Source of the DNA: a virus
Length of the DNA stretch: 33,839 nucleotides
Direction: 5' to 3' (one strand)
Virus record (IMG/VR): IMGVR_UViG_3300030328_000862
Span: 1-33,839 of that record
The translations under genes were made by a program, and so were the position numbers. Under the pieces are notes generated by a model. It did no database searches and had not been told where the DNA came from. It was given only the letters and a program-made list of their open reading frames with translations. This document shows positions 7,766-11,985 of the stretch, one piece after another. Every line of letters starts with the position of its first letter. Position 1 is the first letter of the stretch.

Positions 7766-7934
7766 AAAATTCTCCTCCTGAAATTCCACAATGGTGGCAA
7801 TAATACACCACCCCTTCTGTTTTAATCGTTACACTTAAACATCTATCGTGTTTATTCTTTCTAGTATGGCTACATTCTGGACATAAATACTTTCCAGAGT
7901 GTTTTCTACTTAATAACCATTCTCTAGTTATCAT
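7659..7934 (-). CDS. Separate primase zinc-binding domain (gp4A N-terminus-like)
   Basis: 91 residues. CPEC at 18-21 and CHHC at 46-49 form the four-Cys zinc ribbon of T7-type primases, which recognises the template trinucleotide. After GISGGEFYEK (about 50-59) the sequence is low-complexity and looks like out-of-frame reading of the primase-helicase gene, which overlaps by about 107 bases in the +1 frame. A six-A run lies at the crossing point. Either the zinc domain works in trans, or a +1 shift at the A-run (or an indel in the DNA reading) joins the two. The start ATG overlaps the stop of the methyltransferase gene. Confidence 0.75.
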   Translation of the reverse strand: MITREWLLSRKHSGKYLCPECSHTRKNKHDRCLSVTIKTEGVVYYCHHCGISGGEFYEKTYRKSDSVRSKEGNQSENTRRFKGRGRNSPIW

Positions 7935-7936
7935 TT
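7919..7936. repeat. Left copy of 18-bp direct repeat flanking the SPPY methyltransferase gene
   Basis: ATTCTCTAGTTATCATTT is identical to 8895-8912. On the minus strand it spans the NDN-stop end of the methyltransferase gene and the MITRE start of the zinc-domain gene. The repeat period is 976 bases and encloses just the methyltransferase gene. Confidence 0.85.
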
Positions 7937-8886
7937 ACTATCTCCATAAATAATGAATTATCTGCTTTTAATCTATTATTAATAATATCTACATAACTTT
8001 TATTTAATTCTATTAAGGTCGCATTTCTTCCTAATCTATCAGCAACTAAAGCTGTTGTGCCAGAACCACCAAAAGGGTCTAATACATGACCACCTTCAGG
8101 ACAACCTGCTAAAATACAAGGCTCAATTAAATCTGGTGGATAGGTAGCAAAGTGAGCTTCTTTGTATGGTTTAGTAGTAACAGTCCACACACTTCTTTTA
8201 TTTACTTTTTCATAAATTTTTTGCTGTGCTTCTAGCAATCCTTGTTTAGTTTCAGAAAACCTTTGGTCAACACCTTTTTGTGGTTTTACATTTCCACCTA
8301 TTCTGTCTGTGCCTTTTTCTTTAATAACTTCATTATCAAAATAATAATTTTTAGATTTACTTAATAAAAATATATATTCGTGAGACTTGGTACATCTATC
8401 TTTAACACTCTCTGGCATAGGATTAGGTTTATTCCATATTATATCTTGTCGTAAATACCACCCATCTTCTTGTAAAGCAAAAGCTACTCTAAAAGGTATG
8501 CCTATTAAATCCTTCGGTTTAATTATATTACTTCTATATGCTTTTCTATCTTTGTATCTATCTGCGTTTTTTGTGTGCAAATGTTGTTTGTCTTTATTCT
8601 TATCTTTTTTTAACCATTTGTTTATATATGTACCATTACTTGCATAACTATCTCCTAAATTTAACCACACAGTACCATCATCTCGTAACACTCTTCTAAC
8701 CTCACGAAATACTTGTACCATATTAACGACATACTCTTGTGGTGTTTCTTCTAAACCTAATTGGTCATCTTCTCCATAATCTCTTAAACCCCAATAAGGT
8801 GGTGAAGTAACGCAAGTATGAAAGGTTTTATCTGCAATAGTTTTTAATTTATTTATGCAATTACCTTGTAATATTTTTATTGCCAT
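7924..8886 (-). CDS. DNA methyltransferase, SPPY-type (beta class, N4-cytosine or N6-adenine)
   Basis: 320 residues. The catalytic motif TSPPYW (27-32) precedes the SAM-binding motif DPFGGSGT (270-277), the order of beta-class amino-methyltransferases. SPPY is more common in N4-cytosine enzymes, though N6-adenine enzymes with this motif exist. The central 110-220 region should hold target recognition. No endonuclease partner is adjacent, so protection of phage DNA against host restriction or regulation is likely. The gene is flanked by an 18-bp perfect direct repeat and shares its last codons (NDN-stop) with the dcm gene, which suggests acquisition as a cassette. Confidence 0.92.
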   Translation of the reverse strand: MAIKILQGNCINKLKTIADKTFHTCVTSPPYWGLRDYGEDDQLGLEETPQEYVVNMVQVFREVRRVLRDDGTVWLNLGDSYASNGTYINKWLKKDKNKDKQHLHTKNADRYKDRKAYRSNIIKPKDLIGIPFRVAFALQEDGWYLRQDIIWNKPNPMPESVKDRCTKSHEYIFLLSKSKNYYFDNEVIKEKGTDRIGGNVKPQKGVDQRFSETKQGLLEAQQKIYEKVNKRSVWTVTTKPYKEAHFATYPPDLIEPCILAGCPEGGHVLDPFGGSGTTALVADRLGRNATLIELNKSYVDIINNRLKADNSLFMEIVNDN

Positions 8887-8894
8887 AATTAATT

Positions 8895-8912
8895 ATTCTC
8901 TAGTTATCATTT
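8895..8912. repeat. Right copy of 18-bp direct repeat flanking the SPPY methyltransferase gene
   Basis: Identical to 7919-7936. On the minus strand it spans the NDN-stop end of dcm and then a vestigial start, ATG ATA ACT AGA GAA TAA, which repeats the first five codons (MITRE) of the zinc-domain gene and then stops. This fits dcm having once joined the zinc-domain gene directly. Confidence 0.85.
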
Positions 8913-9997
8913 TCTGCTTCCATAATTGCTAATCCTATCTGTCTAGCTATCTGTGGCACTATAGAATTACCTAAAGCCTTTATTCTCTTGGCTCTATCTC
9001 TGTCCACCCCATAGGATACCCCAGGAGGAACTCCACAAATTCTGGATTCAGTCTGCCACCAGGTTTCTCTTTCTGTGCTAGTGCTGTTATGCACTTTGAT
9101 GCTTGAGTGTTTCCTTGCATCCTCGCCTTGTGTTCCGAAGCCGAAGGTGTCGGCAGCATTTGTTTCATAGCTATCTTTTGCCCTAGACTTGGATTTCTTC
9201 CCTTTTGTACTGATGGAGGAACTGTCGTTACTGAATCCTTGTAATCTCTTGCTCTTGGAGTTGGATACATTTCTTGTACTACTCCCCTCAGATTCCCCTT
9301 TGCTATATCGTGAGGTATTCCTTGTTTGTTTTTCTTCATGTGTGGTGGGTTCTTGTCTGATACTTTTGGACTTGGATACATTACTGCGTCTCTCAGTTTT
9401 ACTCCCCATCTTTCCCCCTTCTTGTTCTCTCGGTAAAAATGTCCATTCTTCATTTTTACATCTTTCACTACCCCTCCCTCTATGTCTGATGCTCTTGGAC
9501 TTGGATATGTTATTGGCAAGAATCCATACTCTGTTTCTGTGATGCCAAGCACCGATACCTGAAGCTGGAATAATGAAACATTGGACTTTGAAACCTTCAC
9601 CTTCCAAGTCATTTTGCACCTGTCGGAGTACCATGCCTTCTTCAATGTTAATAATGCCTTGCACATTTTCCCCAATAACCCATCTCGGTTTGACTTGCTT
9701 AATAACATCAAACATTTCATTCCAGAGCCATCTATCATCTGTTCTGCCTTTTTGTAATCCTGCTTGACTGAAGGCTTGACAAGGGAATCCTCCAGTAACG
9801 ACATCTGCTTGTATTTTTGTGTCATATAAACTCCTTACATCATCATATATTTTTAAATGAGACCAATGCTTCTGTAAAACCTTTTTGCAAAACTCATCTT
9901 TTTCACAGAAGGCAACAGTCTCAAAATACCCTGTGGATTCTAGCCCTAAACTAAAACCACCTATTCCTGAGAATAAATCAAGAACTTTTAATGGCAT
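8900..9997 (-). CDS. dcm: C5-cytosine DNA methyltransferase
   Basis: 365 residues. Motif I DLFSGIGGFSLGL (7-19), motif IV GGFPCQAFS (69-77, catalytic Cys73), motif VI GENV (109-112), motif VIII HRNRVWILAN (153-162) and motif X KALGNSIVPQ (340-349) are all present, so the enzyme should methylate cytosine C5 using SAM. Between motif VIII and X the target-recognition region is unusually rich in Ser, Lys and Arg with repeats of the type NVSKSKSIR, VSNSKSKRLQG and ADTFGFGTQG. That stretch is also read in the +1 frame by a second gene (8980-9825) and is visibly richer in G+C than its neighbours. It overlaps the upstream HTH gene by 20 bases. Confidence 0.92.
   Translation of the reverse strand: MPLKVLDLFSGIGGFSLGLESTGYFETVAFCEKDEFCKKVLQKHWSHLKIYDDVRSLYDTKIQADVVTGGFPCQAFSQAGLQKGRTDDRWLWNEMFDVIKQVKPRWVIGENVQGIINIEEGMVLRQVQNDLEGEGFKVQCFIIPASGIGAWHHRNRVWILANNISKSKSIRHRGRGSERCKNEEWTFLPREQEGGKMGSKTERRSNVSKSKSIRQEPTTHEEKQTRNTSRYSKGESEGSSTRNVSNSKSKRLQGFSNDSSSISTKGKKSKSRAKDSYETNAADTFGFGTQGEDARKHSSIKVHNSTSTERETWWQTESRICGVPPGVSYGVDRDRAKRIKALGNSIVPQIARQIGLAIMEAENDN
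8980..9825 (-). CDS. Overprinted gene inside dcm, phage PTPxAxD / LNPEFVEFLLGYP family
   Basis: 281 codons open in the +1 frame relative to dcm, same strand. ATG 9825 has AAGGAG five bases upstream, formed by dcm codons. The product carries a KMTWKVKVSKSNVSLFQLQ segment (about 73-91), then repeats YPSPRASD, YPSPKVSD, YPTPRARD and LPTPSASE, and near the end GGRLNPEFVEFLLGYPMGW. I recognise these as recurrent in phage proteins annotated as methyltransferase-like; LNPEFVEFLLGYP resembles the pre-motif-X segment of C5 methyltransferases. It has no motif I or catalytic PC, so it is not itself an enzyme of that type. A target-specificity or accessory role for Dcm is possible. That both frames carry familiar motifs, plus the SD, argues for real dual coding. 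Confidence 0.6.
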   Translation of the reverse strand: MTQKYKQMSLLEDSLVKPSVKQDYKKAEQMIDGSGMKCLMLLSKSNRDGLLGKMCKALLTLKKAWYSDRCKMTWKVKVSKSNVSLFQLQVSVLGITETEYGFLPITYPSPRASDIEGGVVKDVKMKNGHFYRENKKGERWGVKLRDAVMYPSPKVSDKNPPHMKKNKQGIPHDIAKGNLRGVVQEMYPTPRARDYKDSVTTVPPSVQKGRNPSLGQKIAMKQMLPTPSASEHKARMQGNTQASKCITALAQKEKPGGRLNPEFVEFLLGYPMGWTEIEPRE

Positions 9998-10232
9998 CTT
10001 CTAAATCCATCTGTTTACCATCACCTTTGTAATGATATTCTGCAAAATGATTCTTTTTTACTCCATTATTTTTCATTTTAGTTTCTATATTATGTCCTTC
10101 TTCTCTTAATGTAAAAATAATTGCTCCTAAACGAAATGAACCATATAGATTCAAGGCTTCAAGAGGATTAATTTTTTTATTTTCTTGTAGATGTGCTAAT
10201 ACTTTATCTTTTTGTGTCAGTTTCTTTGTCAT
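9978..10232 (-). CDS. Helix-turn-helix protein, HTH_39-like
   Basis: 84 residues. The pattern QKDKVLAHLQENKKINPLEA, then LYGSFRLGAIIFTLREEGHNI and a wing-like end, matches the small winged-helix family found in phages beside nuclease and recombination genes (HTH_39, PF14090, from memory). It may bind DNA as a regulator or a replication accessory. It overlaps the resolvase gene upstream by 29 bases and dcm downstream by 20, so it is translated as part of a packed operon. Confidence 0.7.
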   Translation of the reverse strand: MTKKLTQKDKVLAHLQENKKINPLEALNLYGSFRLGAIIFTLREEGHNIETKMKNNGVKKNHFAEYHYKGDGKQMDLEDAIKSS

Positions 10233-10593
10233 TTAGTTGCTCCTTTAAATTATCAACTTCATTTTTTAATTCATAAATCTCTAAACATAACTCTTTAAAC
10301 ATAGACCATTCCATATATACCTTACTGGTTGACCTATCTGCTTGTATTACTAGAAAGTCAGCTTGACCTTTTTGCCTATCTCCAGTTCTATAACCATTTT
10401 TATGTTTCTTTGCTTCAAAAATGTATTTTTTACCTGTTGGAGAAGTAGCACTACAATCGTGAGGGAAGTCTCTGAATATACCACTACCTGGTTGCTTCCT
10501 AGCTTCCCATTTACAATCTTTTTTAAGGTCATCTACTATTTCTTTTTCTAGTTTAGAGCCTTTTGCTTTTGCAGATTTTGCAGTAATAGGCAT
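10204..10593 (-). CDS. Holliday-junction-resolvase-like nuclease (PD-(D/E)XK, Hjc type)
   Basis: 129 residues. KGSKLEKEIVDDLKKD near 11-26 supplies the N-terminal Glu, RKQPGSGIFRDFPHD (about 33-47) the G-S-G and Asp, and YIFEAKKHK (about 57-65) the E-x-K signature. This order is that of archaeal Hjc-like resolvases and related phage endonucleases. The C-terminal 40 residues form a charged helix. It would cleave branched recombination or replication DNA before packaging. It starts at a TGATG junction with the ssDNA-binding-like gene. Confidence 0.75.
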   Translation of the reverse strand: MPITAKSAKAKGSKLEKEIVDDLKKDCKWEARKQPGSGIFRDFPHDCSATSPTGKKYIFEAKKHKNGYRTGDRQKGQADFLVIQADRSTSKVYMEWSMFKELCLEIYELKNEVDNLKEQLNDKETDTKR

Positions 10594-11096: not shown

Positions 11097-11200
11097 TATA
11101 TTCTCCTATTAGGTGGAGGGAAGTAGCTGGAGCAACATTCTACATTGCGTAGAAAAAATGTTACTACTAACCCTCCATATTTATTTATAAGTTGCTCCAT
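11096..11200 (-). CDS. 34-residue micro-ORF filling the gap between exonuclease and SSB-like genes
   Basis: ATG 11200 is fused to the exonuclease stop and TAA 11096-11098 is fused to the next ATG (TAATG at both ends). The peptide begins MEQLINKYGGLVVTFFLRNV and has a Cys-Cys pair and a Pro-rich end. The SD is weak (A/G-rich only). The exact fit and reading-frame length equal that of other micro-ORFs here, but translation is unproven. Confidence 0.4.
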   Translation of the reverse strand: MEQLINKYGGLVVTFFLRNVECCSSYFPPPNRRI

Positions 11201-11985
11201 TATTTTTTCTTTTCATTTAGAAAAGAATGTATCTGCAAATAGTTTTTCCATATTTGCAAATCTTTTACATAGCTATCTGTGTCATAAAGATATTCTTTTA
11301 TCTCTTTTGTATCTTTATCTATTGCTACGATTAATCTGTTAAATGGTTCTCTGCCTAATTCATTACATAATGCATACATATACCCACATAATTGTATTCG
11401 CCATAATTTAGTAACACTTTTTTTTGTAACAGTTTTCCAATCAACTAAACATTCACCATATTTTGTATGGTCAATATAGGCATCAAACTTTCCTGCGAAT
11501 GGCAAAATAGAATTATCATAAACTAAATATTCTACTGCGTGTACTTTCTTAACATTTGCATTAAGATATTCATATAAAGGATATTGCATCAATCGTATTT
11601 GATTATCTCTTTCGTCATGTCCTTTATGATAACCAGTTTCTGCCATATTACCTCTTAAATAACTTTCAATAAAATTATGAATGACAGTTCCTAATTCAGC
11701 AGCTGATTTCCATTTATTTTCTGCCATCTTTTTTATGTCAAATAACTTTTCTTGTAAATCAGTAAGGTCATTTACTCTTAATAAATTAGTATTGGGTAAT
11801 TCTTCTACTAATGTTTCTAAAAAGTTTTTACGACCTGCCATAGCACCTATACCAAATCCATCATCTCCCTTAATAATTTTTGATACACTACTAGGATTTA
11901 TTTTAGTGCCATTGTCATTTACATAATACCTATGATTACCTTCACTAAATTTTATTTCTATATTTTTAAATTTTCTACTTTCCAT
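11200..11985 (-). CDS. PD-(D/E)XK exonuclease, RecB/Cas4-like
   Basis: 261 residues. The nuclease motifs are in order: GTVIHNFIESYL (His103), VEYLVYD (Glu152), GKFDAYID (Asp168), LVDWKT (Asp182, Lys184) and QLCGYMYAL (Gln198, Tyr202). This is the RecB/Cas4/AddB nuclease family. With the neighbouring ssDNA-binding-like protein and resolvase it should serve recombination, end processing or host DNA breakdown. A CRISPR role is not suggested, because no array or other Cas gene is present. Length is typical for phage members. Confidence 0.85.
   Translation of the reverse strand: MESRKFKNIEIKFSEGNHRYYVNDNGTKINPSSVSKIIKGDDGFGIGAMAGRKNFLETLVEELPNTNLLRVNDLTDLQEKLFDIKKMAENKWKSAAELGTVIHNFIESYLRGNMAETGYHKGHDERDNQIRLMQYPLYEYLNANVKKVHAVEYLVYDNSILPFAGKFDAYIDHTKYGECLVDWKTVTKKSVTKLWRIQLCGYMYALCNELGREPFNRLIVAIDKDTKEIKEYLYDTDSYVKDLQIWKNYLQIHSFLNEKKK

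Follow-up and report, generated by a model that had tools for sequence, protein, structure and literature searches.

A phage dcm gene carries in its +1 frame a probable second, DNA-recognition subunit of a C5-cytosine methyltransferase

What is encoded by a phage dcm gene that stays open in two frames over most of its length? The window analysed here is a virus record of 33,839 bases, in which dcm (8900..9997, minus strand) encodes 365 aa. A second ORF of 281 aa, starting with ATG (8980..9825, minus strand), lies wholly within dcm at an offset of 172 nt, that is, in frame +1, and an AAGGAG is read in the sequence 5 nt ahead of the nested ATG (TGTAAGGAGTTTATATG). A preliminary description of this DNA had reported a same-strand, 281-codon ORF in the +1 frame of dcm, with an AAGGAG five bases before its ATG produced by dcm codons; coordinates, frame and site were all confirmed, and the product motifs quoted there were found in both frames. 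We propose that the locus encodes a two-subunit C5-cytosine methyltransferase, consisting of a catalytic alpha subunit and a nested beta subunit. From sequence comparison and structural modelling we put the probability of this reading at about 0.8. The features of the locus are as follows.

8900..9997, minus strand: dcm, proposed alpha subunit, a C5-cytosine methyltransferase with motifs I-VIII, linker and motif X (PF00145, TIGR00675, AlphaFold core)
8980..9825, minus strand: nested ORF in the +1 frame, proposed beta subunit with N-part, putative recognition modules and motif IX (phrog_1008, purifying selection)
9831..9836, minus strand: AAGGAG, the nested ORF's Shine-Dalgarno (SD) site, formed by dcm codons (sequence, SD excess in relatives)
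9521..9825, minus strand: beta N-part overlapping the alpha core, motifs IV-VIII (both frames constrained)
9758..9793, minus strand: alpha motif IV (GGFPCQAFSQAG) with the catalytic Cys (invariant columns in alignment A4)
9379..9507, minus strand: beta module 1, YPSPRASD... (pattern; module type recurs in other phages)
9268..9378, minus strand: beta module 2, YPSPKVSD... (pattern)
9157..9267, minus strand: beta module 3, YPTPRARDYKD... (pattern; module type found at several array positions)
9052..9156, minus strand: beta module 4, LPTPSASE... (pattern; module type recurs)
8983..9054, minus strand: motif-IX-like beta end, RLNPEFVEFLLGYPMGWTEIEPRE (matches actinophage RLSARFVEWMMGLPDGWVTD, which is in frame with motif X)
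9032..9517, minus strand: alpha linker, the Dcm-frame reading of the module DNA, predicted disordered (pLDDT, Dcm-frame dN/dS 0.81)
8933..8986, minus strand: alpha motif X (RIKALGNSIVPQIARQIG), nearly all of it past the beta stop (Dcm-frame dN/dS 0.13)

Directly downstream of dcm lies a gene for an N6/N4 DNA methyltransferase (7924-8886, minus strand; PF01555, E 9e-53), and the window phage thus has two methyltransferase genes in a row. Two candidates for PD-(D/E)XK-type nucleases are found near dcm on the minus strand; the one at 11200-11985 (E 8.7e-6) passes the Pfam cut-off and the one at 10204-10593 (E 0.0017) falls below it.

The Dcm frame matched PF00145 with an E value of 2.1e-49 and scored above the cut-off of TIGR00675. 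Motifs I, IV (PCQ), VI (ENV), VIII and X expected of a PF00145 C5-cytosine methyltransferase were all located in the alpha chain. The small domain with the target-recognition domain (TRD) and motif IX was not found there, and the motif-IX signature lies in the +1 frame. AlphaFold modelling of alpha from a 37-sequence alignment gave high confidence over most of residues 1-165 and for a helix at 335-363, the C-terminal helix that corresponds to motif X; residues 168-331 had a pLDDT below 50 and are predicted to be disordered. M.HaeIII and M.HhaI were the best PDB matches of the model, over about 165 residues only, an aligned length close to the size of their large domain. Because the fold match is limited to this length and residues 168-331 appear disordered, the small domain is predicted to be missing from alpha. 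Given also that motif IX is in the +1 frame, alpha would be a catalytic subunit rather than a complete monomer.

Selection in the two frames was estimated by a simplified OLGenie approach, which sorts the differences seen among relatives into synonymous and nonsynonymous ones for each frame, with bootstrapping over sequences. Members of a clade share ancestry, so that the pairs lack independence; a comparison of disjoint pairs agreed with the full one. Some loci of the window's clade (M) came in via the alternate frame, and the other two clades, a proteobacterial and a Bacteroides-type one, were retrieved via the Dcm frame only. Ahead of the overlap, the alternate frame was neutral in all three clades (NN/NS 0.98-1.09). 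Opposite the catalytic core both frames were constrained, the Dcm frame at 0.17-0.20 and the alternate frame at 0.43-0.55; for the window's clade, the values over 9521..9825 were 0.20 and 0.43 dN/dS, respectively. In the TRD, between motifs VIII and IX, the alternate frame was the more constrained one, with dN/dS of 0.17, 0.19 and 0.22 in the three clades. The Dcm frame was nearly neutral there in the window's clade (0.81 [0.68-0.99]), where changes fell mostly at Dcm codon position 1, which is position 3 of the alternate codon, yet it stays free of stops. At motif X the Dcm frame had a dN/dS of 0.13 and the alternate frame was neutral. After the overlap the alternate frame was neutral in two clades (1.13, 1.19), unlike in the Bacteroides-type clade, where NN/NS was 0.49 even downstream of the nested stop.

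Judged by these substitution patterns, the nested frame has clearly been preserved by evolution. Constraint on the alternate frame in all three clades is the outcome that a two-frame selection check had been expected to give if the recognition part of Dcm were dual-coding. That idea holds in so far as both frames are open; the two frames are unequal, the alternate one being more constrained in the TRD. With the alternate frame constrained and the Dcm frame near-neutral in this region, the recognition function most likely resides in the alternate product.

Of the alternatives, the one that survives best is that both frames carry a working TRD, alpha being a complete monomeric Dcm with its own recognition region, and beta adding to its specificity or changing it. 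The Dcm-frame TRD is indeed also constrained in the proteobacterial and Bacteroides-type clades (0.35 and 0.44), which suggests that the alpha linker is more than a spacer in these phages, and in the two-polypeptide enzyme M.EcoHK31I the predicted TRD lies in the large subunit (PMC3404938). We nevertheless consider a second working TRD unlikely, since in the window's clade the Dcm-frame reading is near-neutral at 0.81 and predicted to be disordered, and since motif IX is absent from the Dcm frame.

How the nested frame is reached bears on a different alternative. Most genes of the window's clade have the opening of the alternate frame at one fixed position, and its first start codon is usually preceded by an SD site. 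We compared the occurrence of SD sites, taken as matches of 6 or more bases, with a null in which the upstream Dcm codons were synonymously randomised; observed and randomised sequences alike were represented by their best start among the first 30 codons. SD sites at the internal start were 4-7 times commoner than synonymous-codon chance (38/51 against 9.4 expected, 41/68 against 6.0, and 25/63 against 5.3), the exception being the Bacteroides-type clade, in which no SD excess was seen at the internal start (1/35 against 0.5). Bacteroidota seldom use SD sites, so this exception fits if the phages of that clade infect Bacteroidota. The loss of SD and ATG among relatives, which the preliminary description had named as evidence against its reading, is thus not the pattern found.

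That description had also raised a +1 shift giving a Dcm with another specificity domain. A programmed +1 frameshift after motif VIII would append the modules and motif IX to the core, and the order of frames (core in 0, modules in +1) would indeed give a sensible chain of motifs I-VIII, TRD and IX, with an offset that is always +1. However, the alternate frame is already constrained upstream of motif VIII, SD-preceded starts are far above chance, which a shift alone leaves unexplained, and the shifted product would be without motif X, which remains in the Dcm frame. In the actinophages Rebeuca and Samy, moreover, the Dcm ORF stops after motif VIII and the homologue of beta is a separate gene. 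Taken with the constraint ahead of motif VIII, the SD excess speaks for initiation at the nested start itself and against frameshifting, which we regard as improbable.

A protein-profile search of the alternate product, as had been suggested for it, gave no match among Pfam and NCBIfam profiles and a match in PHROGs to phrog_1008 (E 4.7e-30; best stretch residues 3-129), to which the product can be assigned. This family contains nested relatives together with actinophage genes that are separate from, or partly overlap, the methyltransferase gene (Rebeuca gp79, Samy gp50, Mori gp5 and McKinley gp5). The actinophage homologues match phrog_1008, and their C-termini also match the C-terminal end of the methyltransferase profile phrog_116; the Samy C-terminus additionally matches that of phrog_363. 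The matched C-terminal end of these methyltransferase profiles is the site of motifs IX and X. The nested consensus GGQLNPxFVEWLMGFPxGWTEL resembles actinophage RLSARFVEWMMGLPDGWVTD, which continues in frame into LKALGNGVVPQQA, motif X. The end of the nested product is therefore a putative motif IX, an assignment that rests on homology and position, as no curated HMM matches there. A PDB profile search with the beta alignment gave no match, and the AlphaFold model of beta alone, with a mean pLDDT of 44.8, neither supports nor contradicts a two-subunit enzyme. One might suppose, from its being unrecognised by Pfam and NCBIfam, that beta is a genuine protein which has nothing to do with methylation, acting for instance in anti-restriction, and is overprinted on dcm by happenstance. 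Such a role is very improbable considering that every relative seen lies in or beside dcm, that beta shares a family with actinophage proteins bearing motifs IX-X, and that alpha is predicted to be without exactly the motif IX/small-domain part.

Three arrangements of these parts were observed. In PFR1 and its relatives the +1 frame holds modules only, motif IX being left to the Dcm frame; the window and most others have modules and motif IX in +1; in Rebeuca and Samy the modules, IX and X are together. Gordonia phage Gudmit (L092, 1284-2669) has one gene with recognition-type modules in either frame, +1 carrying the first of them and the Dcm frame the later ones plus motif IX. When 227 beta sequences were split at the PTP signature, 514 modules resulted, with a median length of 41 aa and mostly 1-4 per protein; these counts are approximate, as module borders were set by pattern. 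One module type can turn up at several array positions and in more than one clade of phages, and the arrays are thus modular and exchangeable. Since the modules sit between motifs VIII and IX, and by analogy with the multispecific enzymes of Bacillus phages, we infer that each would read a DNA target.

The length of the nested frame was compared with synonymous shuffles of dcm. Its open run of 284 codons from stop to stop was reached in none of 1000 shuffles, in which the longest run averaged 117 codons with a maximum of 223. Conversely, shuffling alternate-frame codons in ten relatives broke the Dcm frame at nearly every draw. Stops were counted from motif IV to 20 codons before motif X, in genes with both landmarks, using three viral sets retrieved via the Dcm frame to avoid selecting loci by the alternate frame. 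The +1 frame was stop-free in 18/18, 56/58 and 20/22 Dcm genes of these sets, 94/98 in total, and stops scattered through the alternate frame of intact dcm genes, another sign that had been held to speak against a nested gene, were accordingly not the rule; the +2 frame was never open in the same sets and averaged 12-18 stops. An ORF held open by Dcm amino-acid composition has in its favour that in the TRD the Dcm frame has an abundance of residues seldom giving +1 stops (hence a null mean as high as 117 codons), but with shuffles in both directions and the stop counts in relatives against it, along with frame-specific purifying selection in three clades and the SD excess, a chance ORF was rejected and has a negligible probability.

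For the two-subunit enzyme that we favour, the following scheme can be proposed. The Dcm frame would yield alpha, composed of the catalytic domain (motifs I-VIII) and C-terminal motif X; a linker, the sequence of which would hardly matter in the window's clade, would join the two. Beta would be translated from its own SD-ATG just upstream of dcm motif IV, and would consist of an N-part of ~100 residues, exchangeable recognition modules of ~40 aa, and motif IX. The array of the window's beta has four predicted modules with the signature [LY]P[TS]Pxxx[DE]. Alpha and beta would then assemble as a heterodimer, in which beta takes the place that the small (TRD) domain has in an ordinary C5-methyltransferase and its modules read the DNA. 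Comparative evidence supports the initial suggestion that the nested product is probably a partner subunit.

The closest precedent is M.EcoHK31I (YGGCCR), which has its small ORF nested in the large gene in an alternate frame, as the window does. In this enzyme, motifs I-VIII and X are in the large subunit and IX is in the small one (PMC3404938). The window shares this motif layout. The two differ in that the predicted TRD of M.EcoHK31I is in its large subunit, whereas selection places that of the window in the nested frame, and in that the window's enzyme is phage-encoded. Relative to the M.EcoHK31I plan, the new element would be the TRD in the nested frame, as indicated by selection. M.AquI (CYCGRG) is a split C5-methyltransferase with catalytic motifs I-VIII on one chain and motif IX plus part of the recognition region on the other (PMC3404938). 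The window likewise separates motifs I-VIII from the putative motif IX and recognition region, but motif X is in the small subunit of M.AquI and is kept in alpha, in the Dcm frame, in the window; actinophage relatives such as Rebeuca and Samy are nearer than the window to the M.AquI plan. Phages of the Bacillus SPbeta group have multispecific C5-methyltransferases. By description these resemble the window's system in having tandem, short, exchangeable modules in a phage C5-methyltransferase, and differ in being a single chain in a single frame. The PHROGs v4 name of phrog_1008, 'DNA methyltransferase', is silent on an overprinted, partial enzyme.

Homologues of the alternate product were detected by tblastn in 64 phage records, and in 91 when a Paenibacillus relative was the query. 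Hosts and names among them include Paenibacillus, Lacticaseibacillus, Bacteroides, Acinetobacter, Escherichia (N15 gene 58), Salmonella and Xanthomonas. Both CDS are annotated as methyltransferases in Paenibacillus phage Tadhana and Xanthomonas phage PhiXhv-28; N15, SEN4 and several others have a single CDS annotated at the locus. A paper on Paenibacillus phage genomes lists a pair of neighbouring 'DNA-cytosine methyltransferase' genes, and its passages retrieved on them are silent on overlap. A nested gene of this kind in phages was not found described in the open-licence papers searched, which is no proof of absence or novelty. A scan of 84,980 species genomes with a six-sequence alignment identified 439 loci encoding a beta relative. 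Among 80 of these that were fetched, from many bacterial phyla, the relative was in +1 to dcm in 80/80; having been picked by the alternate frame, these loci tell how constant the arrangement is and not how common. Complete E. coli genomes seldom contain close DNA relatives of the ESSI2 phage dcm (2/5426). The overprinted arrangement is apparently very widespread in phages and prophages, and the early surmise that many phages read one stretch of DNA in two ways to give the two protein families has been borne out by this comparison.

In a marine phage record (L002, KT997847.1, 2237-3073), the Dcm frame shifts within the N-terminus, by sequencing error or a real frameshift, and annotators consequently took the beta ORF as the methyltransferase. 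Motif IV of dcm in viral contig L316 reads GGSPC-FVAGTS...SFIAAGIVVHN-CQDLS, an intein-like insertion at the site of the catalytic cysteine; its intact relative L315 has GGSPCQDLS, and the dcm of L317 reads as that of L316.

A wider proposal, for and against which we see about equal odds, is that these loci form a widespread class of phage C5-methyltransferases with an overprinted specificity subunit, in which exchangeable modules of ~40 aa would each read a different site, specificity would change by swapping or adding cassettes open in two frames, and what is annotated as the TRD in many phage Dcm proteins would be the true one read out of frame. If so, a common phage enzyme would usually be annotated with just one of its two subunits. 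The supposed recognition-domain stretch would be mostly in the wrong frame, and prediction of specificity from such Dcm sequences would fail; cloning of the single gene could yield an inactive enzyme. The overlap would be unusually long (about 850 nt) and deeply conserved for the same strand, with the main constraint on one frame for part of its length and on the other for the rest. In such a system one could test directly how dual-coding cassettes evolve and whether phages diversify methylation through module shuffling.
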